In this document: one piece after another, positions 4,001-60,300 of the stretch
Layout: each line of letters opens with the position of its first letter
Numbering within the stretch: the stretch's first letter is position 1
From: Apostichopus japonicus
Taxonomy: Eukaryota; Echinodermata; Holothuroidea; Aspidochirotida; Stichopodidae
DNA: 64,000 nucleotides
NCBI RefSeq assembly: GCF_037975245.1
Contig: NC_092583.1
Span: forward strand, 13,295,764-13,359,763
Reading direction: 5' to 3'
Made by a program: the position numbers and the translations under genes
The notes under the pieces: generated by a model
Database searches by the model: none
What the model was told of the DNA's origin: nothing
The model's input: the letters and a program-made list of their open reading frames with translations, nothing else

Positions 4001-7000
4001 CAGACATCACTGCGAAGACACAGGTAACGTTTTAAGTAAAGGAAGTTGATCTAGGAGCTATAGGTCGTTCCATGGTAAATCGGAATATTAAAAGTGGTCA
4101 GAATTGGCTGGAATCTGTAGCATGCACGGGAAGTGAAAAGTAGCAAGGAAGTTGCGTAAAGGGAGGAGGGAAGGGGGGGGGGGGGAAGGTGAGAATACAA
4201 GGCCGAAGAAGGTTGTAGAAGATGGAAAGTCAGTAGAAGCTGGGAGGGTGAATGGGGGTTACGAATATGAACAAGAATGTGCAAGGTGAATAAGGAAGTG
4301 GAAGGGGCAAGGGGTGTAGAAGGATATGACATCAATCACAGAGAATGATAATCTTCTCCAGCATATGTTTTCGTTCATAGAGAATGTAGCACCATTATTA
4401 TCTAAGAAAAGTGATCCTTTTTTTTTGACAGGATGGGTATACCCCTTTACTGTGTGCGGCGGGAAACGGTCACGTGGAGGTTGCTAAAGTACTCATTGGT
4501 GCGGGATGTGACGGAAACGAGCTTATTTCTGTAAGTATAATGTACATATTAAAATCACGCCCTCTACTCTATACCTGCCAGGATAATGTACATATTAAAA
4601 TCACGCCCTCTAACTTATACCTGCCAGTATAATGTACATATTAAAATCACGCCCTCAAAACTATACCTGCCAGTATAATGTACATATTAAAATTATGCCC
4701 TCTAACCTATACCTGCCAGTATAATATACATATTAAAATTATGCCCTCAAAACTATACCTGCCAGTATAATGTACATATTAAAATGTATGCCCTTTATCC
4801 TATACGTGCCAGTCTTGTTTCAAACCAAAGCAAGTTGAATTCAGTATGCACCTATTCTTAGTATCAGATATTGAAATGACCCCCCGGTAAGATCGATTGC
4901 ATAGGTATATAACTCAGAAAGCGTTTTCAAGTTAGCCAGGACTATTCGTTAAATTTATCGACACCCTGATTCCATCCTACCACCACACCCCCACCCCAAC
5001 TTTTAAGTCTTCTTCTTGCATTTTACTTGCTACGGTACCTTATGACTGCATTGTTTTCTCACTTTCTGATATAAGCCGATAGGTATCAACGCCTTGCACA
5101 TTGCCGCATGGACAGGACAAGCCCATGTGGTCAAAACTCTGCTCGAAATGGGAGTAGAAGTAGAAACTCCTAGCAAAGTAAGTTTTTATTCCGCCAACGA
5201 CTGCTTGGGTTAAGGAACGTTATTGTGACGTAATCAATTTCACAAAGACTGTTTCACTGGGAGGGGAAGGGTGGAGAAGGAGAAGGGTAGGGTAGAGAGG
5301 GGGTAGGTGGAGGAGGGGAAGGTGGGTTACATTATACATGGAAAGAGTAGTTAGGATAGGAGATAATTTTCTTCAACAAGTGCAAATTGGAAAATAAAAG
5401 TCGGATACGGCTTTTCCGATATTGTTTGCGTGATCTTGTGCCTGTTGATGTGTGGACGAGAGGTAGCCTACACGTATAACTCGAAATGCAATTTATACAG
5501 ACCTAGTCAATAATCAGTTTATTAGCGTATTAAATTTATAACTATATTTAGATAGGATTGCTCTAGGTTGAGGGGTGGGTTGGGGAGGGGCGCACATGTT
5601 GTAAAGGAGGGGCAACCGAATTTCGTCACGCAGTATCCCGTGCTACATTATTTGTTGTTTTGAATGAATCCAGGGGCAAATGTTACTTTTTCATTGGACG
5701 AATGAGGCGCTACGTCACCACTATAATAACAATTTTAATTAAACTGGAACATTTACAAATCTGGAATTAAAAGTTGATAGAGAACATCTCTTCCGGTGCT
5801 ATCCCTCATTACAGATGCAGAAAACTGCCATAGAATTCGCGATTGAGCAGGGCCACACGGAGGTGATGGAGGAGATCAGGAACCATCGGAAAAAAGTAAG
5901 TAGCAAACGTAACTTGTAGAAAAAAAGTACAAATACAGATATTTGTGGGTTTAAGTGGAGTGGGGTTTTTGTTGTTGTAATTCTCTATGTATGTCATGGG
6001 AGGGGGTGGGTGTGATGTAGAAGACCATGGTTATGGGAGGGGTGCAGAAGACCAGGGTCATGAAAGGGGGGGGGGTGCAGACGTGTTTAAAAGTGGGGAA
6101 TAGTTGTCTGTAATAAGAACGTCCTCAGCTGGACAGATACAACCGTCAACCAGGAACTCTAGCCTATCACTGATCCAAAAGTTTTTTTTTTTCGTTTTTT
6201 ATCGAGATTTGAAGCGCAAATGGCCTACCATAAGATATGCTGCAGAAAACAATATTTAGACTTATCCATGTTACTTATTTTCCATTGCTTTTCGTTTGAT
6301 TTTCAGTTGGATAAAGGAATTCATGACAAGAGTTTCTTCCAAAAGAAAATAATGCAAGTCGGTGACAAAATTCGAGGATACTACGAAGAAACATTAAAAC
6401 AAGAGGTGGAATATTTTGAAGAGCAGATGGAGGAACAGAGCCTCAAGGAAGAAAATACAATTGCTCTGCTAAAGGGAGAGATTGAAAGGCTTAAAAGGGG
6501 AGAGGGACCATCCAAGGCACCTTTTCGAAGAAAGGCAGCAACCATAACTGAACCACCAACTTCGAACATAACAAACGGGAAGAAATACTCGAATTTTAAA
6601 AGGAAAATTGTTTTCCCTGGTTTGGCGAAATTTGTACCCCTGGACAAAGTCAGCGAGTCTGACAGGGAGACTGACCCTGATAGTGACCTCGAAGAGGGCA
6701 CGGACACGCCTTCATCCGGTACGTCATCAGTAGAGACTACTGTATCCTCACCAACGGTGACTGATACGTCACCGGTTACTCGTCGGGTATCGCGCCCGAG
6801 AACCGTAAGACAGAAGAGTATGGTAGATTTAGTATCCGAAATGGAGCAAAAAGAGCACTCGATGACTAACTTGAGGAAACCGGAAGGTAGCGAAGATTCT
6901 GTGAATTTACATTCTAGTTTGAAATCTCCCCATAGAGATACATCTGCAAAGGACGCTTCTAGCACCTCCCCCAGAAGGGTCACGTTTTCTTCCAGTGTTA

Positions 7001-7332
7001 TGCCAGAACCACCGCCGTATAAACCGTTACAAAAGGTCGAGGAGTCGTCTGACATGTTGTCCCCTTTGTCATCAGATCCCCCCAGACGACGTCGGAAAAG
7101 TTTCGCCGAGTTCTTCCGTCCGTCAGCTCCAGCGACAGAAAAGGAAGATGGAACGCCAATGAGACGAAAGAGTGTCGCTAGTAGGATGCAATCACAACCA
7201 ACTGCTCCGCCAAAACCAAAACCAACAAGAAATTCTTTTTCTGTCCTTCACTTTCCCCTCCCTGGGATTCAGACCAGATCACCACCGCAGGGGGGTGGGC
7301 AGTTCCCTCCTCGTTCATCGACACCTACTTAA
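1036..7332 (+). CDS. Ankyrin-repeat protein with coiled coil and basic Ser/Pro-rich tail (7 exons, 542 aa)
   Basis: Coding exons are 1036-1149, 3554-3658, 3922-4023, 4432-4530, 5076-5177, 5815-5895 and 6307-7332 (TAA). Every intron is GT/AG and phase 0, so exons are whole codons. Exons 1-6 (residues 1-201) each encode about one ankyrin repeat; typical cores are NRTVLHWA, TPLHEACLVGH, GYTPLLCAAGNGHVEVAKVL and NALHIAAWTGQAHVV. Exon 7 (residues 202-542) has no ankyrin repeat. It holds a Glu/Lys-rich coiled coil (about 218-266), an acidic Ser/Thr-rich stretch, two basic RRxS sites (RRRRKS, RRKS) that resemble kinase sites, and a PxxP-rich end (APPKPKP). There is no signal peptide or membrane segment, so an intracellular scaffold or adaptor is likely. 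I do not recognise an orthologue. The ATG at 1036 opens the first ankyrin helix directly; an upstream non-coding exon is possible. The last codons lie in a 128-bp tandem duplication. Confidence 0.86.
2282..2345 (+). repeat. tRNA-derived SINE fragment (B-box region)
   Basis: GGTTTGAATCCC at 2321-2332 matches a pol III B box, preceded by the GGCTCGACCCCAAGGTCATC context common in tRNA-type SINEs. No clear A box or cloverleaf is visible, so this is a fragment and not a tRNA gene. Confidence 0.4.
2968..3312. repeat. TACTCG-rich repeat block
   Basis: About a dozen occurrences of TACTCG and close variants (GTACTCGG, GTACTCGAAAAGTACTC, GCACTCGG) fall in about 340 bp. GTACTCGAAAAGTACTC occurs twice (near 2996 and 3119) and is itself a near-palindrome. 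This looks like the interior of a non-autonomous transposon, but terminal repeats were not identified. Confidence 0.5.
4535..4815 (+). repeat. 46-bp tandem repeat (about 6 copies) starting at a splice donor
   Basis: Six imperfect head-to-tail copies of a 46-bp unit (core ATAATGTACATATTAAAAT, then CACGCCCTC and ATACCTGCCAG). The first copy starts within the GTAAGTATAAT donor of exon 4 (4531), so the expansion began at the 5' splice site of this intron. Confidence 0.85.
5178..6306 (+). other. Introns 5 and 6 of the ankyrin gene (exon 6 between)
   Basis: Apart from exon 6 (5815-5895) this stretch has G-rich purine tracts (about 5258-5330, 5995-6075) and no repeat family that I recognise. Exon 7 begins after TTTTCAG at 6306; an in-frame extension upstream to 6220 is intronic. 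Confidence 0.6.
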
Positions 7333-9304: not shown

Positions 9305-11045
9305 GGATATGTGACATCTAACTTCTGGAGAGTGGTGATAGGACATCTGGTGATGTGACATCACACTTCTTGGAGAGTGGTGATAGGACATCTGGTGATG
9401 TGACATCACACTTCTGGAGAGTGGTGATAGGACATCTGGTGATGTGACATCACACTTCTGGAGAGTGGTGATAGGACATCTGGTCATGTGACATCACACT
9501 TCTGGAGAGTGGTGATAGGACATCTGGTCATGTGACATCACACTTCTGGAGAGTGGTGATAGGACATCTGGTCATGTGACATCACACTTCTTGGAGAGTG
9601 GTGATAGGACATCTGGTCATGTGACATCACACTTCTGGAGAGTGGTGATAGGACATCTGGTCATGTGACATCACACTTCTGGAGAGTGGTGATAGGACAT
9701 CTGGTGATGTGACATCACACTTTTGAAGAGTGGTGATAGGACATCTGGTCATGTGACATCACACTTCTGGAGAGTGGTGATAGGAGATCTGGTCATGTGA
9801 CATCACACTTCTTGGAGAGTGGTGATAGGACATCTGGTCATGTGACATCACACTTCTTGGAGAGTGGTGATAGGACATCTGGTCATGTGACATCACACTT
9901 CTGGAAAGTGGTGATAGGACATCTGGTCATGTGACATCACACTTCTGGAGAGTGGTGATAGGACATCTGGTGATGTGACATCACACTTCTGGAGAGTGGT
10001 GATAGGACATCTGGTCATGTGACATCACACTTCTTGGAGAGTGGTGATAGGACATCTGGTCATGTGACATCACACTTCTGGAGAGTGGTGATAGGACATC
10101 TGGTCATGTGACATCACACTTCTGAAGAGTGGTGATAGGACATCTGGTCATGTGACATCACACTTCTGGAGAGTGGTGATAGGAGATCTGGTCATGTGAC
10201 ATCACACTTCTTGGAGAGTGGTGATAGGACATCTGGTCATGTGACATCAAGCTCTGGAAGACTGGACTGGTGATACGTCATTTATTCATGTGATATCTCA
10301 CTCTTGCATTGGTCATGTGACATCCAACTTCTAAAGACTGGTGGCAAGGCATCTGGTCATGTGACATCCTACTTCTGGAGAGAGGTGATAGGACATCTGG
10401 TCATGTGACATCCTACTTCTGGAGAGAGGTGATAGGACATCTGGTCATGTGACATCACACCTCTGGAGAGTGGTGATAGGACATCTGGTCATGTGACATC
10501 ACACTTTTGAAGAGTGGTGATAGGACATCTGGTCATGTGACATCACACTTCTGAAGAGTGGTGATAGGACATCTGGTCATGTGACATCACACTTCTGGAG
10601 AGTGGTGATAGGAGATCTGGTCATGTGACATCACACTTCTTGGAGAGTGGTGATAGGACATCTGGTCATGTGACATCAAGCTCTGGAAGACTGGACTGGT
10701 GATACGTCATTTATTCATGTGATATCTCACTCTTGCATTGGTCATGTGACATCCAACTTCTAAAGACTGGTGGCAAGGCATCTGGTCATGTGACATCCTA
10801 CTTCTGGAGAGAGGTGATAGGACATCTGGTCATGTGACATCCTACTTCTGGAGAGAGGTGATAGGACATCTGGTCATGTGACATCACACCTCTGGAGAGT
10901 GGTGATAGGACATCTGGTCATGTGACATCACACTTTTGAAGAGTGGTGATAGGACATCTGGTCATGTGACATCAAGCTCTGGAAGACTGGACTGGTGATA
11001 CGTCATTTATTCATGTGATATCTCACTCTTGCATTGGTCATGTGG
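9305..11045. repeat. 44/45-bp minisatellite, about 38 units with higher-order structure
   Basis: A 1.74-kb array of a 44-45 bp unit with core CACACTTCTGGAGAGTGGTG, then ATAGGACATCTGGTCATGTGACAT. Variants differ at a few fixed places (GGTGATGTG versus GGTCATGTG, TTCTGG versus TTCTTGG, GGACATC versus GGAGATC). In the distal half a composite block with a divergent unit (AAGCTCTGGAAGACTGGACT) recurs at 10249, 10678 and 10974, giving higher-order periods of 429 and 296 bp. Most units carry GTCATGTGAC, an E-box-type 10-mer. The array lies between the convergent ankyrin and TAF5 genes. Confidence 0.95.
11006..11011 (-). terminator. Candidate TAF5 poly(A) signal inside the last minisatellite block
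   Basis: The minus strand reads AATAAA here, 130 nt downstream of the TAF5 stop. It lies in the divergent unit of the minisatellite, and the same hexamer recurs in the two earlier copies of that unit (near 10281 and 10710). Functional use is inferred from position only. Confidence 0.4.
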
Positions 11046-14100: not shown

Positions 14101-17100
14101 GTAAAAGGTACAAACTGAAAAACTAACCTCATGTGATCAACAGTGAATAGTATAGACATCTTACTGGGATTTGGACATGCAGAAGAATTGGAGACCATAT
14201 TACTATTGGAGAGTTGGAACCTTGAAGGCATTTTGAATTCTGGATGTTTCATAAGAAAATAGCAAACTTTCTTTGCAAACGCCAAGAGGATCACAGCTTT
14301 GGAATATGTATCGCCATCAAGGTGTACCTCTCACCTCGTTGGGAAGTAAACCATGTCATATTCTGCTATACTGGGATATCGAATATCTTATTAAGAGATC
14401 TGTTTGGTCATACCCATAAATTTTGAAAGATCCCAATTAGCTAGCTATTTATTCTTGTAATCAATTTATATTTTGTTGTTGCTTCATTTGCAAACCTTTC
14501 TGAGTGTATGCCTCATTTTATCCTTCCTGCGGAGATTGTGGTCAATTAAAGCAATCTCCATAACGTTTGAAGGTATTTTATATAATTAGGTATTATACCA
14601 CAGGATTGTGGATAGATTCAAATGAAAATAATCTTGACAATGTTTGAAGGTATTCTATATAATTAGGTATTATACCACAGGATTGTGGATAGATTCAAAT
14701 GAAAATAATCTCGACAATGTTTGAAGGTATTCTATATAATTAGGTATTATACCACAGGATTGTGGATAGATTCAAATGAAAATAATCTTGACAATGTTTG
14801 AAGGTATTCTATATAATTAGGTATTATACCACAGGATTGTGGATAGATTCAAATGAAAATAATCTTGACAATGTTTGAAGGTATTCTATATAATTAGGTA
14901 TTATACCACAGGATTGTGGATAGATTCAAATGAATATACAGCTTCAACCATTACACACATCATAACCATGTCCACCATTACGATAATGAGTCCAGGGTAA
15001 CGATTACGATATAACACACAAGAAACATCAAGACTGTCCAATAATTTAGCCAAAAGCAATCACACAAACTGGTCAGTGGACTTCCGTCTGAAAGTTTGTT
15101 TTCTTAGAAATTTTGGCAGTCATTCTGTTTAGAGGGGTGGGGAGGGGGGGGGGGGATGTTTACACTGAGGGTTTGTTGTCATACTAAACTTGATCTGATT
15201 TGTTTGCTTGACTTAGCTTAGCTTAGTCACCTAGCTGGGAATAAGCTTGCCGAGATACTTTTTATATTGTTGCAACTTGTATTTATCCACTGGTGAGTTT
15301 TCACCGTGCATTATCCATAGGGTTAATGCACGGTCAGTTGATGACAACGGGCCAATCAGATTCAAGAATGAAGAATGAAGAAAATGTCCAATAACTACCC
15401 AAAAGCAACGTCCCAAACTGGAAAGTTGTGACCTTTGTAGCAGACCAAGGTGGAAAAGGTGAAGAGATTCCACAACCTCACTGAAAAAAGAACGTAAACA
15501 AATTTGTCAAAATTTATCAATTTCTAATCACAATTATACATTGTAAACTATGAGAAATCCACTCCCCACGTGGTAATGAAATGAAAATGAACTAACAAGT
15601 ACAGAGGTAGTTCCCTGATTTTAACCTTGGCACCATTCTGCAGCCCCCCCTCCCCCCAAAAAATTGAAAAGCTAACTTTACCTGTTCCATCTCCAGATGC
15701 AGAGAGCAGTAAATTTCTGTCTGGACTAAAACTGGTTGCGTAAACAGGACCGCTGTGACCAACAAGTACCTTACAGTCTGTAGAACTCCTATCAAAAAAT
15801 TAAATGTATAGAAATAAAAAAAATGCACATTCCCTCCATCTCCCTAAGTAGCGTGGAAATTTTGAGACTTTTGCAAACTTGTAGTCTGACTCTTGTTACG
15901 ACTTTCCTGTCCAATATCTCATCTATCTCCTTCTGGTTGATTAACTGGGCCTATGAGTAAATTCCTTATCAAACACTGTCTAAGCAGTGCTTGCTGTATA
16001 ACCCACAAGCCTGTAACTTAACCCCCCCCCCCACTCTTAATGATGAGGGGAGAGATAAACTGAAATTTATTGGACCAACTTCATTACTGAGAGGTTACTC
16101 CAGCTGCCCCTACTACAGACACAACAACAAGAAATGATTGGCAATATGCAAAAAAAAACAGTTTTAGAGGTATAATCTATCTAGGGCCGTTGACTCACGT
16201 TGGCCGAAATTTAATCGGCAGAAAAAGGGGTATTATCAGAGCTATTGGACGAGACATTTATATCCAGAGATATACAGAACGAAAGACACATTAAATCATT
16301 CGCACATTGAGAGATGAATCACTTCAGTAACGAGAACAAACAATTGAAGGATAAAAGTAAAATCAATTCATGAAATAAACTCATAACGACCCACTTTGAT
16401 AACGACAATATTTATAGTTGGTTTTTAATTGCAGTGACACATTGAAGATTTATTTACACATTACAAATTCTACCTTTCAATAGCTTGGCTAACAGTAGGC
16501 ACTTGAAATCCAATACCATGTTTTTTGATCATGCATGACCTTTGACCTGAACCTGACATCATAAGTTGACGTACCTTTCATCCATGATTCTTTCCATGAC
16601 ATCCTCTGCTTCTTTTTCCAACTCTTGCAATATTTCTGCTGGTTTGATACTCCGAAGCTTCTTCGGGGTCAGGGTCCAGAGGCGAATGTTAGAATCGGCA
16701 AACCCAGCAGCCAGCAGACTGGAATCGTCGCTGATTTCTACCGATATTAGTCTACAAAATACAAACACATCAATATCTTGCATCACATACTGACGTACGG
16801 TTGCCCTTTGACCTTATGATTATGCAAATTAGCAATTTTTATGTTTTCCTTTACTGATTTCTAAGAAGAGTAATGTCGCTGCAAACAGATTCCCCCCCCC
16901 CACCCCAAAGTAACATCCTGTTAAACCGCAACTTTATATTAAAAAATATCAGTTCTGGAAATGATAGAAGGCTACTTTTGAAATGCCTAAAACAAGTTAC
17001 TGAGTAGGTAGTTATATTGATACAAATTTATCATTTCTAGCAAGCTTGTTCGTAATAATACTTGATCAAACCTGTCGATTCTTTAGACTCCTCAAAACCT

Positions 17101-45321: not shown

Positions 45322-48300
45322 TGACACTGAGTAGCTGTTAGTACATCACAAAATATCGTGCAATTTATATTTATTTTTATTAGAAAAGTTAATGAATAAA
45401 AATAAAACAAAACTTCAAAGTATTGTACCGCTGAGCAACTGGACAATTATTAAAGCTATGTATGGATGTGGGAGTTAAATGATGATATTTTTCTTCAATC
45501 CACAAGCTCTGTCATTCTTTAAGGACAATCAGTCTTCCTGCTTATTTTACAATTGATTTATGAATGAATACATATTGACAACTATTGTTCTGATACTTGT
45601 GAGCACACGTCTCTGTGGTTGCCATAGCGATGGTTCAAAATTTAGCTGAAGAAGAGACTGTAATGATGATCAGAAGTGATTAAATACTGAATGTAGCAGG
45701 TAGTGAGCGATGGTAACTGCTTGGACGGTTTAATCACGATACATGCAGTGTCAGGCATGGTCTCCAAGCCCTGCAGTTTTATAATACAGTCAGTTTTGTA
45801 GATGCCTTTTATAAAGGAACTGATTATTTATATGTATAGAGAGGTTTCAGTACCCATATAGAGACTTAGAAAGTCGACCCCTTAATGAGACTACAATGAC
45901 TAGCTACAATTAGATTATCCTCCTGCTCGTATTATGGACTCCTCTCTAGTTATGAGACTGCAATGACTATGTGCAATTTGAGTATCCTCCTGCTTGTAAT
46001 GGACTCACTGTCTAGTTATGAGACTGCAATGACTAGGTGCAATTAGAGTATCCTCCTGCTGGTAATGGACTCACTGTCTAGTTAGGAGACTGCAATGACT
46101 AGCTACAATTAGATTATCCTCCTGCTCGTAATGGAATTGCTCTCTAGTTATGAAACTTGTAATGGACTCACTCTCTATTTATGAGACTGCAATGACTAGC
46201 TGCAATTAGAGTATCTTCCTGCTCGTAATGGACTCACTCTCTAGTTATGAGACACTTTCTAGAAGTATTTAACACATACCTTCATCCCTCAATATAGTCT
46301 GGTCCTAGCTCTCATTTTGGAGAACAGATAATAACTTAAAAAATATTGTTCAATTTGTGAGGTATCAAGAAGTAAATTTTTCTGTATTGAAAGTAAGTGG
46401 TTTGGAGCTATGTTATTAATAATCGGCAAATATTTCAGAAGAAATATAAATCTGTTAGGTGGGGTATGTGATATCGTGGTCTCCAGTGAGGAATAGGTCA
46501 AGGTAACACAAAGATAGTAATCACTTCCAAATGCAAGACCAAAATTGTACCTCACCGCCCCCCCCCCCAAAAAAAACCCTGCACACATCACTTTAAACAT
46601 CCAATGATGTCATGCTTTCATTAGTTTCCTTATTAGTACGTTTCTCAGTAGTCAGGAAATAATTTATCTGGCATCGCATACTATTACTAGCCAGTTGTGG
46701 GAATTCATGAAAGCTTAATTGGTAAAGTAAAGGCTTCGTAATTGACGCACCCCCGTAATTGACGCACCTTCAATTATAACTAGCAACGATACAGCAGGCC
46801 ACCTAAACTTTTTGCAGTCAAGCATAATTACATATTCATGAGTTTGAATCCATTTCAGCTATTTGCTGACCAAATTGTGGTATCTATTAAGCTTTTACCA
46901 CCCTCCCCCCAGTTCTACACATATTTTGGACATTTGGAAATCTTACTCCCAAAAAATTACCAAAATTATTTCAATATGATACAACTACTCTCTGGGACCT
47001 GACCTGTCTGAGCTAAGAGGTTCAGAGCATAGCAAACAGCATCCAAAGTCAATGGATGTATACTTAGGCCTACTCTACAGTTAGCTTATCGACGAATGTG
47101 TCAATTTAGGGGTATGAAAGAACTTGACACAGCAGACATTTTGTGTTCAAATTCTTCTCAATTGTACGTTGCGTAGGCACAGAACAATAAATATTTTGAG
47201 ATCATTACATTTGTGAGGAACTACACATATGAACAAGAGCCCAAGGGCACTGTGGTTCCTTGCTTGGGGTATATGACAATACACATAATATTATCAAGCA
47301 AGATTGGGCTCAAATAGTCCAAGTAATTGTGGTCCTACATGCTCCCATAAAGTAACCAACACTATAGCCAACACTTTTGTGATCACAAAATGTGATCGGA
47401 TTTTGGATCAAAAGGCACTTTTGAGATCTAAATATGGCGTCGAAAATGTAAGAAATATAAGAGACCTACAAGCGTGTCAACAGATATGATAACATTGGTG
47501 ACCTCAGATGACATGACCTTTAAGTTTCAAATGTTCCACCACCCCATTCACAACTTGCCCCAAAATATCAACCATGTCACACCTTGGCATTGAGATTTAA
47601 TTGCATTAAATTTCAAGAAATTAACTTTGAACTTGTATACATTACTTCACACAAACGTCACCCGGAGGTCAACCAATTGACATTTTTGATCCGTGAGACC
47701 TAAATAGAGCATGACTGTAAAAATTCAAACATTTTTTCTTTGCCCATTTTCTCCCCCCAAAATACTACTTTTTTAACATTAGCTGACCTTTGGTGACGTT
47801 GGACCACATGACCGTTAAGTTTGAAAATATTTCCCTATACCATTTGCAACTACTCGAAAAATATCAACCTTGTCACAACTTGGAACTGGGAGTTATTGCA
47901 TTAAATGTCTGAAAATTAACTTTGACCTCATATAACTTCGCACACGAAGGTCACATGGGGGGTCAACCCATTGACATTTATGATCAGAAGGTACCTTTAA
48001 CATCTGAAAATAGCATCGAAACTGTAAAAATCCACAAAACACGAAAAGGTCACCAGAGGTCAAAATGAGGTCAAGGGTCACCCAGATGCGGGTCGACAAT
48101 TGGATTACATTGAAGCAACCCCCAACTCTAACGGACAATTTGTTCTCAAGTTATCGCAAAAATACTAGTTTTTTATCATTAATTGACCTTTGGTGACCTC
48201 GGATCACATGACCCTTAAGTTTGAAAATATTCCCCTATACCATTTGCAACTTGTCTCAAAATATCAACTGTGTAACACCTTGGCACTAGGAGTCTGAAAT

Positions 48301-51300
48301 GTCTAATGTCTAAATGTCTGAAAATTAACTTTGACCTCATATAACTTCACACACAAAGGTCACATGAGGGTCAACCCATTGACATTTATGATCAGAAGGT
48401 ACCTTTAACATCTGAAAATAGCATCGAAACTGTAAAAATCCACAAAACAAGAAAAGGTCACCAGAGGTCAAATTGAGGTCAAGGGTCACCCAGATGCGGG
48501 TCGACAATTGGATTACATTGAAGCAACTCCCAACCCTAACGGACAATTTGTTCTCAAGTTATCGCAAAAATACTAGTTTTTTATCATTAATTGACCTTTG
48601 GTGACCTCGTATCACATGACCGTTAAGTTTGAAAATATTCCCCTATACCATTTGCAACTACTCCAAAAATATCAACCTTGTCACAACTTGGAACTGGGAG
48701 TTATTGCATTAAATGTCTGAAAATTAACTTTGACCTTGTATAACTTCGCACACGAAGGTCACACGGGGGTCAACTTATTGACATTTATGGTCAGAAGGTA
48801 CCTTTGACATCTGAAAATAGCATCGAAACTAAAAATCCACAAAACACGAAAAGGTCACCAGAGGTCAAATTGAGGTCAAGGGTCACCCAGATGCGGGTCG
48901 ACAATTGGATTACATTGAAGCAACTCCCAACCCTAACGGACAATTTGTTCTCAAGTTATCGCAAAAATACTAGTCTTTTATCATTGATTGACCTTTGATG
49001 ACCTCGGATCACATGACCCTTAAGTTTGAAAATATTCCCCTATACCATTTGCTACTTGTCTCAAAATATCAACTGTGTAACACCTTGGCACTGGGAGTTA
49101 TTACACTAAATGTCTGAAAATTAACTTTGACCTCATATAACTTAACACACAAAGGTCACCTTGGGTCACCTTATTGACATTTTTGATTGATGAGACCTAA
49201 ATTAGAGCATCAAACTATACAAATTCAAACATTTTTTCTTTGCCCATTTTCTGCCCCCAAAATACTAGTTTTTTATCATTAATTGACCTTTGGTGACCTC
49301 GGATCATGTGACCGTTAAGTTTGAAAATATTCCCCTATACCATTTGCAACTTGTCCAAAAATATCAACCATGTCACACCTTGGCACTGGGAGTTGTTGCA
49401 TTAAATGTCTGAAAATTAACTTTGACCTTGTATAACTTCGCACACGAAGGTCACACGGGTGTCAACCAATTGACATTTTTGATCGGAAGGTACCTTTGAT
49501 ATCCAAATCTAGCATCAAAACCAAACATTTTCTTTTTTGCTCGTTTCCTCCCAAAACAAGCACATTTTTTCTAATGTGACTTTTGACCTTGGTTTCAGAT
49601 GTAGTTTAATCTCCTGATTCCAAAAAACAAAACGACAAGTCTGTACAACCATCCTAATTCCGACCGAAAAACTTTGACCCCATATAACTTCGCACATAAA
49701 GGTCACACGGGGTCAACCTGATGACATTTATGATCAGAAGGTACCTTTGACATCTGAAAATAGCATCAAAACTGCAAAAATCCACAAAAACATGTAAAGG
49801 TCACCAGAGGTCAAATTGAGGTCAAGGGTCACCCAGATGCGGGTCGACATAAGGATTACATTGAGGCAACTCCAGACCCTAACGGACAATTCGTTCTCAA
49901 GTTATCGCAAAAATACTAGTTTTTTATCATTAATTGACCTTTGGTGACCTCGGATCACATGACCGTTAAGTTTGAAAATGTTCCCCTAACCAGTTCACAA
50001 CTTGTCCCAAAATATCAACCTTGTAGCACATTGGCACTGGGAGTTATTGCAGTTTTAATTTGTTCGGTTTTTGGACCATAACTGACCTTTGGTGACCTTT
50101 GTGGGCACCAAAAACAATAGGGCACACCTTCTCCATATGGTGGATCTATGGTCCAAGTTTGGCCTCAATCCAACATTCCCTTATTGAGATAGAGCGTACC
50201 CAAGCAAGTGTCACAGACACACACACAGACACACACGCATACATACACACACACACACACACACACGCCAACCTGACTGCATAGGTTCCTTTTGCTAAAG
50301 CAAGGAACCAAAAATGCATGCAGTTGAGTGATTTGGATTTTAGGTTGACAGACATCGTCAATCCAATCCTTAAGTGCGTCAATTATGAGCCCACCATGCT
50401 ACTGCAAATAGCTATTTGCAATGTAATGTGCATCCTGTTGTATTGTACTGAAAAAATTGGTCTTGCCGTGAATTACAATGAACATTACCCACTATAAAAG
50501 GAGACCAACCTTCGTCAGAAACAGTACCAGGCTCAACCAGTCACTTCATACATGAGTTGTCAGCCACAATAGATCTCAATTTTACTGGCATCGAGGATAT
50601 GCATAGAAATTGAAGCAGCTTGTAGTTCCTTGTTTTCCCCCATTTGGTTGGTATTGTAACTAAAATGTTATTTGTTGTTGAAGTAATTTTTATTTTTAGT
50701 GCGCGTGCGCGCTACAATATTGGCATTACTAGCCAAGTGAACCATACCCACATGACTGGACGTTGAAAATTAAAGTTTCATATAGTCTTTGTACATTTGC
50801 AGTTTCAGTGGCTAGCTGCGTAGCCAACTTATACTGAGCCTGTCAAGGTAGAGACCCTATTGTCCTGCTGTACGGTCTCTATGTCAAGGTAGAGTTCCTT
50901 TTTAGTGAGGCAGAGCCGTATATACGGCTCTGTACTGAGGTGCTCACAAGCGCCCTCACTTTGTAGGTACCTACATTACATTACTATACTCCCTTGTAGT
51001 GTGTTTTCCGCCCTAAAATAACACCATGACCAACCGAAAAGGTCTTCCTAATCTGCAAGCACCCCACTCGCACCACAATACTGCGTTTTTGCAGGCAAAT
51101 GCAGTTATAGTTTATTTTCGTTTGTTTCCGGAGTGAAGTCTAATGATCTCTAACTTAGAACTTGTCTCTTTTTTAACGCGCGGCCAGCTCGTAGTTTAGT
51201 GTTTTTCCATGTTCTTAAACTCCGTATTTGCATACGCTATGCTATTCGGCCAATCACTGGACAGCTGATTTCATCATCCGATATTTCCGGTGTATTCTTT

Positions 51301-54300: not shown

Positions 54301-57300
54301 ATCTAGCCTGCCTGGACTAATCCTATTCAAAACAAAACATGTTCAAGACTTTAGCAACAGAAAGTCTCTGCAGCAATTTCTAACCTTTCCTGAACTTTGG
54401 TATTAGCCAACATCTACCAACAGTTTTCTACCGGTGGGCTACCAGTACCACTACTCAATAGCCTATGTACTAGAAATTACAAACCAGTCTAACATAAAAA
54501 AAATTTCCATCATCGTGAGTAGAGTTGTAACCTAACATAGCCTACAACAGATTTTTGATGCACTGGTCAATCTTTTCATGTTACTTGGTGTTGCATGCAC
54601 ATTGATCAAAGCCAAATATTGGTCTGCTATACTGCAGGGCCTAGCTCTATATTGTGCAAATTTCCAGATTTGGCCAAGCTTTCTCTCACAATTCACTTTG
54701 AGTTTAATATTTGGTATGTTTGATGTGAATTTATTTTGGGTATTAGTCGTTAGTCTTTCATCAGTTAACATGGCACAACCAGCACAAAGGTTAAGAGTAA
54801 CAGATTTTCTTCCTACAAGATTTTGTGGTGATAGAATCGACAGTGATTGGTGTAGAGCACATTTTTATACCTTTGTATATTACTTAGAGGCTCATGACCT
54901 GCATGAACCTGCTGATCAGGCAGAACTTCACAATGTTGTACAACTTTTCAAACGTAGCCTCCAAGGTACTGCTAGATTATGGATTGAACGAAAGGTATTT
55001 GAGACATTACAGGATTTACAAACTGTATTTGTCGATCGCTTCAGTCCATCACAGTCTCAATTTGCCTATGTCACCCAGTTTGAGAATATTACATATATAT
55101 TCCTGGGGAAAGTGCTGAGCAACACTTATCCAAAATCAGTCAACTTGCTAAAATAATAGGGTATGGGGATGACCAAGTACAGTAAGACATAAGTTCTTAT
55201 CAACCCTGCTATCAAAATGTCGCACTGCTGTACTAATGTCAGCTCCTGACAACATTTTGGAGACCATAGTTACTAGTACAGGGATGCCATACAGTACGAT
55301 TTTATCGAATTTAGTACCATAAAACAAGTGAAATACGATAATACAATATTGCCTCTTGAAAATACAATTTTTCATCCCAAATTTTTTTTTTTTTTAATTT
55401 TTTAAATTTTTTTTAAAGGAAGCGGAATCGCATAGAAACATGTACAAGTAACCCCCCAAACCCCAACAAACACGTTGAACAACGAGCCTACATGGGTGGG
55501 AAATACGCGGAATCTGCAGCTTTACAATTGTCTCATTAAATGTTAATGAAAAAGCAAACATTTTACTTGCCCGTTCTTACCAGTAAAACATTTTTCTGAC
55601 ATTTTACTGGCCCGGAGCCAACGGGCCAGTGGTAGTGTTGAGTTTTCGTGAAAATCTGATTTTTCTCTCCAAAATCTGATTTTTTAGGATATTCAGTCTG
55701 TTTTTTTGTGTCAAGAAGTTGGCATCTCTGCTCGTACCCAGTCTTTTTTTTATCTCCAAGATGAAAAAGCTTCTAAGGAAGTATCATTCTCTGCTCGAGA
55801 AGTAGCCCCTGCCCCAAATTCTGCAATATATGATGAGATCTATGCACAGTTGAAAGATCAGTTGCAGACTTTAAATATGGCACGAGGAGAGTTCAGAGAA
55901 CCACGCAAATTGCAACGTGACAGTACTCCCAACCATAACCGATCAAATTCCCCATCAGTTAACAGAGGAGGTAAAAGCCCTAATAGGCGAACCTCAGGAT
56001 CGCACAATAACTTAAGGAAGGATACTGGTAGATATTACAGACGCAAAACTTTTTGTGACTATTGCCTGTATCCCGGTCATACATGGCGTAACTGTAGAAA
56101 ACGGCAAAGAGACCTTTAACAACGCCAAATCCAAAGAGGGACAAAAACTAATTCTGAAAGGGGTAATCCTTAGTTTGGTGAATTAAAAACTAACACATTC
56201 AAGATCTCAGCCAAAAAGTTGCATCTCGGACCTGCTTATGTTGCAATTAAACCTGGTCAAGAAAAATGCATCACTTTGAAAGGAAACGTACCACCTTATT
56301 TAAGGAATGCAGTGAAATTTAGAAGAGGTCGAACAAGTATTCCAGTTAAGAATCTTTCTCGTCAGACTATACATGTTGTGTCAGATATGCCAGTTGCTAC
56401 TCTACATTTCAGCCAGTTGATTGATGTTGTAAACCTTTGCCATCACAATATGTAACCCAACTGTCAAGTAATGATTCATTACACAAAGTATCTGTGGAAC
56501 TTCCAGAGTCGACTACTATTGTTGAGGAATGTGTTAAGAAATATCCACATTTATATCTAGATGATCCTAATTTGAAATTGTCTAAAGATGAGATTATCCA
56601 TAAATATGTCAGTTTGTCTCAGAGTGTGTTAACACCTGATGAAGAAGAGGAAGTGTATGACTTGCTCTCACAAAACAGACAGGCATTTTCCTTATATAGA
56701 AATTTGTCAAGCTGCCCAACTTTGAAGTTGATATTGAAGTTGATATTGAGCTATCCAATGATGAACCATTTTATATCAGACCTTATTTTGCTTCCTATAG
56801 TGGTAAGCAAGCAATTGACAAAGAGTTAAACCATTTGGTTAAATTAGGTATTTTGTCCATTGGACATCAGTCTAACACATCTCCGGTGTTACTCATATCA
56901 AATCAAGTGAAAAGAGGTTAGTTACAGACTTCAGATACTTGAATTCTAGAATAAGGAAAATCAATCATCCTTTCCCATTGCTTTCTGAGACCCTAAAGAC
57001 AATAGGCAATTCAGAAGCCAGAGTGCTGAGTGTAGTAGACATTAAGTCAGCCTTTCATTGCTTTCCACTTTCCAAGCATGCACAACAATTTACAGGAATA
57101 GCTTGGAAATCACTTTAACTATAAAAGATCGCCACAAGGTCTTGACATTACTCCAGGTATATTTCAGGCGAAAATCAATGATATTCTTAATGCTATACCT
57201 ATTTCTACAGAATTTTGTATTGCACATTACAACGACATTATCTTATTCAGTAAAGATAAGAGTGAACATAAGAAGCATTTAACATTGTTACTGAAATGTT

Positions 57301-60300
57301 TGGCAGATAATGGATTGAAAAGTTTGTCCTAAGAAATGTAAATTGTTCAGAAGCAGTGTAGTATACATGGGACATACGATTTTTGTGAATGAAAGGGGTT
57401 GTCTGTGTATACAAGCACTCACAGACAGATGTGAAGCAATTAGGAGAATGAAACGTGCAAAAGAAACAAGGAGATTTGTTGGAGCAGTAAACTATATTTC
57501 AAACTTTTTCCCAAAAATCCGAAGTGTTTTGAGACCAATTCATCACCTTGCAAGAAAGCATAAAAGATTTGTGTGGAGTGATGAACAAGCAGCATTTGAA
57601 CAGATAAAATCAATGATGACTAATCCACCAATATTGCATTTGCAAGAGGTATTGGTACATTCAATTTGTACAGTGACACTTCACATACTGGGTCTGTTGA
57701 AGACAAAGAATATATTCTTGGTTATTATTCTAAAGTCTTACCACCTGCCTGCCAAAACTATAGTGTTACAGAGTTAGAGATGTTTGGATTGTTGATCAAC
57801 ATCACAGCATTTAAGCATCTATTGAAGCCAAATTAATTCAATGCATTTGTTGATCATTCATCTATAGCTCAGATCTCACAATCTAAGGATGAACTTAGCA
57901 CTTCTTCGAAAATGAATCCTGAAATGATTCGATTATTCATTCAAGATTGGTTGCAAAAAGGGATCAGGTTTGGTTTTGGCAGATTTTTTGTCTAGAAATC
58001 CAAATTATAGTCACTCCGAGATTGACAAAGTTGTTCCTATAGCATTCTCTCTGTTTGCTTCAGAACTGTTGAATGATGAAGTTAAAGAACCTGTATGTAA
58101 CCCAATAGTTACAAGGTCATATGCAAGGACACATGGTATAGATATTCCAGATTTGTTCCCAAAGGGCTCAAAGACAAATGAAACTGTTGCAGAGCCAACA
58201 CAATGGCATAGTGAAATCGCTCAAACTAATGGTCAAAGGGCTAATCAGTCTTCTGATAGTGGAATCTCCAGAAGACAGTTTCCATTGCATAGACCTGTCA
58301 ATTTGCCAGAACATGATCACTTGCGAAATGGTGTAAGAGATCTCAGACCACATGTTAGCATCAGACCACCATTGGTAACCAATGAACTGGTCGATAGGGA
58401 AACTGAAGAGTTGGTCAGAGATCCCCCTCCTGAATTGTATAGGGTACCCGGGCCAAACCACTGATATCCAAAGTAGATGGTCTTGTAACACGTCATGTTC
58501 CAAAACAGGCCAAGTTAGATAAGATGATGGATATGATAAAGAGGAAAATTATTAGAGATTACAACTTACCAATTGATGTTCAGCAGTTAAAAGCTGAATT
58601 CAGATGTAAGGAATGAAATGAGTCTAATAGTTGGATCATTTATAACATCTTTTTTGGTTGTAAAGTACAGTAAAGACTATAGATACTGTATTTATTTGAT
58701 AATGGCAGTTCACCAATCAGAAACAGTTCTTTCTAGATGTGAGATTCATCAAGAACATCTGGATCATACAAGATGGTTTTGATTTTACACTTTAGATGCA
58801 GCGATGAAAGTAGGATGCTGAGGTAGCTGCAGCTGGGGTGTATTAGGACATAATCTTTTGTGATGTACCCTTAATTGTACTCATTTTGAAAATATTAGAT
58901 ATTCACACTTATTGTAAAGTTTTTGTTTTTGTGTTAATTTTTTTTCAGTCAGTATGTGTTGTTTGTTTTCTTGGCATTAATCTGCCATGCATGTTCTAAG
59001 TGACTTATCAAGCCAAGCAGTTTTGAGCAGTGACTTATAATTTAGTAGAGCAAAGCAGAAATACAGTTTATGTGCTTTGTCATACCTTCTCTACATTTCA
59101 TCAGTACAATTTTACTTTACTTAATGCCACTTTGACCTTATATTGACTCTGCCTATAAAATAGGACGTTCAAAGCTGTATGTTATTACATAAGGACATTT
59201 CATGGTAAGACTCTTTACCATAAGACTACATTGAGTATGGATAAGCAGAGATTTATTTTCTACAAAGAAAAACAAATTTAATGCTGCCTTGATCTTATAT
59301 TGAGTCTGTGTTTGTAGTCAAAACACCTTGCAAAATAATATGTTCAACAGCTGTATGTTATCACATAAGGACATTTCATGGTAAGACTCTTTATCATAAG
59401 ACTTCATTCAGTTTGGAAAAGCAGAGAATTATTTTCTATGAAGGCGAAAAATATTGCCTTTTTTTCCCACCCAGTCATTTGAGAAACAGCTATTTTTGTT
59501 AAAATTGCATAAGCAGTGTGCTAAGTTATTGTTCTGAAAACGTGAAGAATCCCTTTATAACCTCCTTCAAACTTTGGGGTGTATATGAAAATTAATATTT
59601 ATTTTTAAATGTTATCACAATTTCTTTGCAATATTCTTTTTCAAGTTGTGACTCTTAACTGGCATATGAATAGATGTAAATTGTGCTCATATATGGAAGT
59701 AGAGTAACCTTACTCATATAGTAAGTCAAAAACAGGTGCATGGTGAATATTCATCATATTATAATGATGAATATTGATATATTATAATGATGAATATTCA
59801 TAGTATAAGTTTCTTACAAGTTTCTTTTTGATCACTTACAGGCTGTTTCCAATGTAACACTGGCTCCTGTATTCCAGCTTATTGGGAGTGTGATGGTTTT
59901 GTGGATTGCCTTGATGGAGAAGATGAAGCTGATTGTGGTGGTTAGATAAATATTATTATATTTTCATTATTTTATATTTTCATTGCATTGGGAATATTTG
60001 CACTAGCAGTTGAATGATAGTAACATGGGAATTGCCACCTTAATAGTGTTCTTGTATTTAGAATCATGATCTTTCCCATTCCCCCCTCCCGCCCCCCCCC
60101 CCCTCTATCATACAATAAAGGACAATCATTGTTTGTTTCAACTTTATGATCCAACTTTAAAGATTTAAATCACAGTCCAGAATCTCTCACAGTGGTTAGT
60201 TTGCCAAATTTTGGAATTGGTCGTTTCATTTCTTGTTTAGGAAATCCTGTTTTACGAATGAAATCATTTGATTCATGATACCGCCATATGCTACGTACAC

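Follow-up and report, generated by a model that had tools for sequence, protein, structure and literature searches.

A probable non-autonomous Helentron of Apostichopus japonicus and its array of nuclear-receptor-type half-sites

The stretch of DNA analysed here (the window) comprises 64,000 nucleotides of the Apostichopus japonicus genome (GCF_037975245.1, contig NC_092583.1, positions 13,295,764 to 13,359,763 of the forward strand). On its minus strand, at ∼47232-50311, lies a mobile element, larger than the extent first given for it, whose interior is a satellite-like array of half-sites of the nuclear receptor type. A preliminary description had called this array a mobile satellite, which it is in the sense that it forms the central repeat of a Helentron/HINE and that its units have thousands of genomic copies. 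We consider it very probable that the element is a HINE derived from a gene-bearing Helentron, its half-sites probably being protein-binding sites of the element. The features on which this reading rests are, in window coordinates (DR, direct repeat, followed by the number of bases between half-sites):

47232 to 50311, minus strand: the whole HINE (non-autonomous Helentron), delimited by end-point comparison with genomic copies; it runs from 50311 (5') to 47232 or 47233 (3')
50284 to 50309, minus strand: 5' subterminal repeat GGTTCCTTGCTT and its inverted repeat, which together make a hairpin found 678 times in the genome at ≤2 mismatches
50212 to 50266, minus strand: (GT)n microsatellite separating the hairpin from the array, from a tandem-repeat scan
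47495 to 50100, no strand assigned: satellite-like array of eight full or partial units, from a tandem-repeat scan and self-comparison
47254 to 47265, minus strand: 3' subterminal repeat AAGCAAGGAACC, which complements the 5' repeat exactly
47237 to 47250, minus strand: 3' palindrome GTGCCCTTGGGCTC, core GCCCTTGGGC, followed by terminal TTGTT; palindrome read by eye
48047 to 48080, plus strand: DR4-DR5-DR1 block, copy 1, exact match
48455 to 48488, plus strand: DR4-DR5-DR1 block, copy 2, exact match
48852 to 48885, plus strand: DR4-DR5-DR1 block, copy 3, exact match
49798 to 49831, plus strand: DR4-DR5-DR1 block, copy 4, exact match
48184 to 48199, minus strand: DR4 (AGGTCACCAAAGGTCA); other exact copies at 48592, 49284, 49935 and 50083
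48357 to 48373, plus strand: second pair, AGGTCA..GGGTCA, from a half-site scan

Read along the minus strand, the element follows a T-rich flank and comprises, in this order, the 5' repeat and its inverted repeat (the hairpin), the (GT)n tract, the array, the 3' repeat and the palindrome, after which it ends. The subterminal inverted repeats GGTTCCTTGCTT and AAGCAAGGAACC are 12 bp long, exact and flank the array, with no other site in the window at ≤1 mismatch; the 3' repeat lies ∼22 bp and the palindrome ∼5 bp from the 3' terminus, and the array begins more than 200 bp inside the 5' end. A cut-and-paste transposon with terminal inverted repeats was considered and excluded because the left end runs 22 bp past the repeat and bears the palindrome. 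How well are the ends fixed? Among 20 genomic loci picked for an exact block and used for end-point comparison, the left end is identical to the window's in 14 and of a second type in 5, with neither type in the fetched stretch of the remaining locus (L020); the right-end hairpin is visible in 17, two of them of a variant type, and the right end beside the repeat starts AA (TT on the element strand) in the window and in all 17 readable loci. A second subfamily (L021, L023, L028, L030 and L035) combines the same array with another 3' end (left end AACCAGAATGAAAACATTTCAT) and a hairpin that differs slightly; from these sequences, the ends of array-bearing subfamilies are apparently swapped in modular fashion.

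HINEs are non-autonomous Helentrons, and their layout is described in those parts of two accounts on which we draw (Thomas et al. 2014, PMC4067079; PMC7492417). We assign the window element to them because its end and array layout is theirs. In the part used here, the first account shares with our element the 12-bp subterminal inverted repeats, the palindrome near the 3' end and, apparently, the T-rich insertion flanks, and it likewise has a parent that encodes Rep with a C-terminal endonuclease and a HINE that is a deletion derivative of that parent. In contrast, the mite HINE families in that text have their 3' repeat 38-60 bp and their palindrome 8-35 bp from the end, and the half-site-dense, satellite-like array, parent copies included, sets the present element apart (PMC4067079). 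The oyster Cg_HINE has the same order of 5' repeat, inverted repeat, microsatellite, satellite-like central repeats, 3' repeat and palindrome; in the sections of that account used here, however, its monomers are mostly 140-180 bp, as opposed to ∼400 and ∼295 bp, and no autonomous element could be related to it, whereas a parent is found here (PMC7492417).

The array consists of units of ∼400 bp, which carry a block module (∼150 bp; 4 of the 8 units), and of ∼295 bp, which do not; period-408 tandem repeats span 47759-49187, and self-comparison widens the array to ∼47495-∼50100. The four DR4-DR5-DR1 blocks (AGGTCA-4-AGGTCA-5-AGGTCA-1-GGGTCA) stand exactly where the preliminary description had placed them, with the spacings it gave, and the additional DR4 that it read on the other strand is borne out by five exact occurrences of TGACCTTTGGTGACCT at the starts listed above. 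Direct repeats of RGKTCA with spacings between 1 and 5 are thus present as DR4, DR5 and DR1, plus the opposite-strand DR4. All four belong to copies of a single ∼400-bp unit, hence they are not four independent events, and treating them as four would inflate the case; a single unit is still far above chance. The 408-bp unit 48184-48591 holds 10 RGGTCA sites on both strands, whereas 2000 dinucleotide shuffles gave 0.58 on average and at most 4, so that 0/2000 reached the observed count. The enrichment over shuffles is strong there but weaker in two of the eight units, whose counts were matched by 14/2000 (47495-47783) and 31/2000 shuffles (49935-50060). Overall, RGGTCA sites number 17.0 per kb within the element vs 0.79 in the remaining window, a ∼20-fold difference. 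Five close RGGTCA pairs elsewhere in the window (6672, 13386, 16536, 23726 and 40716) are all minus-strand direct repeats and show no clear similarity to the element.

Ten half-sites in one unit where 0.58 are expected argue against the leading rival, to which we nevertheless give a chance only slightly short of even: that a satellite unit that happened to bear AGGTCA was caught by a Helentron and amplified, its half-sites idle. That central repeats are replaceable, as oyster HINEs with differing array monomers indicate in the part of that account used here (PMC7492417), would suit such a passenger. The arrangement of the half-sites brings in another rival. In the eight units plus the tail, all RGGTCA pairs with a gap of 0-10 are direct repeats, and their start-to-start distances are mostly 10-11 bp, about one helical turn. 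Iterons, the Rep-bound sites of rolling-circle replicons, come to mind, and hexamer direct repeats at this distance could be recognized by the HUH Rep of the element itself; the presence of the array in gene-bearing copies agrees with such a role. Yet the same spacing suits receptors equally, and the array, besides starting well inside the 5' end, also extends far from both termini; moreover, we know of no Rep binding site in it. We regard iteron-like sites as quite improbable.

Where do the element and its array come from? The host genome as searched comprises 671,581,487 bases (671.6 Mb) on 35 contigs. A scan for the 34-bp block, which the preliminary description had put forward as a check, returned 2,226 exact copies, which by themselves account for 8,904 half-sites, and the 5' hairpin (≤2 mismatches) returned 678; backward-read controls gave 0 in both cases. 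The Helitron-type Rep domain PF14214 has 50 matches in the genome, four of them on contigs C1-C6, the set on which hairpin-to-Rep pairing was judged and in which all exact hairpin copies are listed. The three strong matches, on C3, C4 and C5, have a correctly oriented hairpin 10,862, 10,043 and 9,624 bp away, respectively; the fourth (C4:24062526) is weak, with 32.2 bits and two stops, and no listed hairpin lies near it. In 3/3 of the strong cases, hairpin and array are upstream of Rep, with 2, 2 and 2 exact blocks, which speaks against a mere passenger. Genome-wide, Helitron_like_N matches cluster strongly, with 32/50 on C17 (mostly 15.7-24.3 Mb) and 6/50 on C22 (20.2-20.5 Mb), many of these being broken.

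The C4 Helentron, with a total span of ∼17.2 kb, encodes an OTU-like domain (scoring just below its curated cut-off), DUF6570, Rep (PF14214) and a C-terminal endonuclease (PF03372, E 2.9e-11). Its array stops near element position 2311 and its long open frame begins at 7073, ∼4.8 kb downstream; its 3' part has about one and a half more units and the same end as the window element, C4 being the sole parental 3' end fetched. The long open frame, in which the OTU-like domain lies, also contains a 63-bp tandem repeat (∼11.7 copies; L052:899-1633), i.e. a 21-residue coding repeat. Because window 48074-50315 matches the C4 5' part at 94.0% identity and window 47241-47922 matches its 3' part at 85.7%, the window element looks like the parent minus the middle between units; and because gene-bearing copies share its hairpin and array, and the C4 copy its 3' end as well, we read it as a deletion derivative. 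In other words, the HINE would have arisen from a ∼17-kb gene-bearing Helentron through loss of the coding middle, probably by recombination between units or by skipping from one to another, since array units sit on either side of the gene. Helentrons move by rolling-circle transposition, and the parent's Rep/endonuclease protein would mobilize the HINE in this way; unequal exchange would alter unit number. The half-site-rich unit appears to belong to the parent's 5' noncoding region and to predate the unit duplications. Judged from the array-bearing gene copies, it is a known class of transposon that apparently spreads the sites.

The preliminary description had made the conservation of spacing among genomic copies a point on which its proposal would turn, and the result is divided. 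The first DR4 has spacing 4 in 69/76 modules, 3 in one and no intact pair in 6, and the block keeps 4,5,1 in 54/62 (a sample picked for exact blocks). The second pair, in contrast, drifts: its spacing is 6, 5, 5, 4 and 4 in the window units starting at 47784, 48184, 48592, 48989 and 49670 (DR6, DR5, DR5, DR4 and DR4), and among 92 modules AGGTCA..RGGTCA is spaced by 4 in 17, 5 in 37 and 6 in 1, the intact pair being gone in 37. Strict dimer spacing is thus not maintained at the second pair, where spacings vary from 4 to 6 in window and genome alike.

Sequence variation at the half-sites is lower than elsewhere by several comparisons. Among the window units, deviating cells number 13/252 at half-sites vs 109/1134 at other positions, and 4/212 shifted masks are as low. 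In 92 A modules, in whose retrieval half-sites had no role, changes number 79/2657 at half-sites vs 1485/18970 elsewhere (1060/17233 without CpG columns), with 6/258 shifted masks as low. The block modules come from a biased sample, their loci having been picked for exact blocks; corrected by removing one exact copy per locus, their rates are 0.0068 at half-sites vs 0.0324 at other positions, and at most 3/157 shifts are as low. Finally, when genome-wide patterns were searched with half-site bases left free, 13/100 rows were changed (13/1800 bases), whereas a control stretch with identical layout had 34/100 changed (40/1800; p=0.0007 by rows); both tallies were taken by eye from the first 100 places listed, and the control was picked after module column rates were known, its excess resting largely on two recurrent variants. 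Free spacer bases in the block search, tallied by eye in the same manner, were changed in 23/1000, vs the same 13/1800. A whole-unit alignment (6/300 vs 237/2141, 0/398 shifts) was dropped: two unlike unit tails had been forced together in it, which inflated the class of other positions.

Several observations weigh against a protein-binding role and, in part, for idle half-sites. Besides the drift of the second pair, mutations confined to single loci do not differ significantly, with 13/2657 at half-sites vs 103/17233 at other positions in A modules (p=0.58) and 7/1037 vs 56/5376 in the block module (p=0.39). Without the recurrent variants, the contrast with the control stretch falls to 6 vs 14 (p=0.11); highly variable columns are 3/54 at half-sites vs 55/329 elsewhere, which is significant when pooled (p=0.039) and in neither module alone; several half-sites are lost in the C4 parent's 3'-side unit and in window unit 1; and units of one element are related, which makes the p values optimistic. 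The lower variation between lineages still counts against neutral passengers. It comes mostly through recurrent variants and hints at constraint on the element: constraint during the evolution of element lineages is possible from these comparisons, and on inserted copies none is detectable.

What might read the half-sites? A by-exon count gives 48 zf-C4 matches in the host genome. Two of the DNA-binding domains have NR5A2 (1.2e-41) and COUP-TF1 (2.8e-43) as their best matches, and others look HNF4-like and TR-like by eye. Receptor binding to the array is plausible. COUP-TF tolerates varied half-site spacing, and a spacing-tolerant receptor of its kind would fit the second pair better. The simplest form of our preferred reading, that the half-sites are probably protein-binding sites for the element, would be an enhancer read by such spacing-tolerant host receptors. 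A further rival places the function with the host: gene-near copies would be used as a regulatory network, or thousands of sites would soak up receptor, as the preliminary description had supposed. The 2,226 exact blocks with their 8,904 half-sites, the host receptors with matching DNA-binding domains and the precedent of Alu (PMC1785376, in the portion used here) could all be cited for it, but single inserted copies show no significant excess conservation. A general host function is unsupported because these copies decay without detectable protection of their half-sites, and we hold this rival to be most improbable.

Beyond the element, the window contains a TFIID subunit 5-like WD40 exon; a 44-bp tandem array at 9309-10974, whose higher-order periods are 177 and 429; and further tandem arrays of 46 bp (4534-4813), 77 bp (14565-14938) and 66 bp (45885-46157). 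By eye, the open frames at 54578-58464 resemble a gypsy-type retroelement, and a Pfam search of pieces from this stretch gave no match at E 0.001. Outside the host, neither the block nor the hairpin had a match in viral contigs, and phage records held no match to the element. The TGACCTTTGACC triple was found at 7 loci, and a 19-place DR4 motif at 3 loci plus one match, in genome contigs, within a Sulfobacillus reading frame; all these DR4-motif matches were judged to be chance. Six strings from the element did not occur in the searched literature, and in a literature search pairing Helitron with receptor terms the word 'helitron' was absent among the matches listed.

Tandem promoter monomers upstream of an element's own gene are familiar from the 5' end of mouse L1. 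The present array resembles them in being made of tandem units upstream of the element's gene; unlike in L1, kilobases separate the array from the Rep open frame, and a promoter role for the array is putative. In the parts of the reports used here, Alu repeats carry DR2/DR4 receptor elements (PMC1785376) and HNF4 sites (PMC3252374). The array had been proposed as an undescribed regulatory element; the half-site array itself is real, but its carrier belongs to a known transposon class, and the spread of receptor sites by transposons has this Alu precedent, in which consensus receptor direct repeats are likewise dispersed (PMC1785376). Alu sites, however, are single motifs produced by mutation within a short interspersed element, whereas here a tandem array of many putative sites sits within a gene-bearing DNA transposon.

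What is unusual is the dense half-site array upstream of the element's own gene in gene-bearing copies, a concrete case of a DNA transposon with receptor-type half-sites in this position. A satellite-bearing HINE is now tied to a gene-bearing Helentron with the same array, a link that the oyster study, in the part used here, could not draw (PMC7492417). We think it rather unlikely, though worth stating, that the Helentron keeps a receptor-element array as hormone-responsive control of Rep, with receptor signalling timing transposition and HINEs scattering enhancer units genome-wide. If receptors do bind, hormone signalling could govern rolling-circle transposition and seed response elements.

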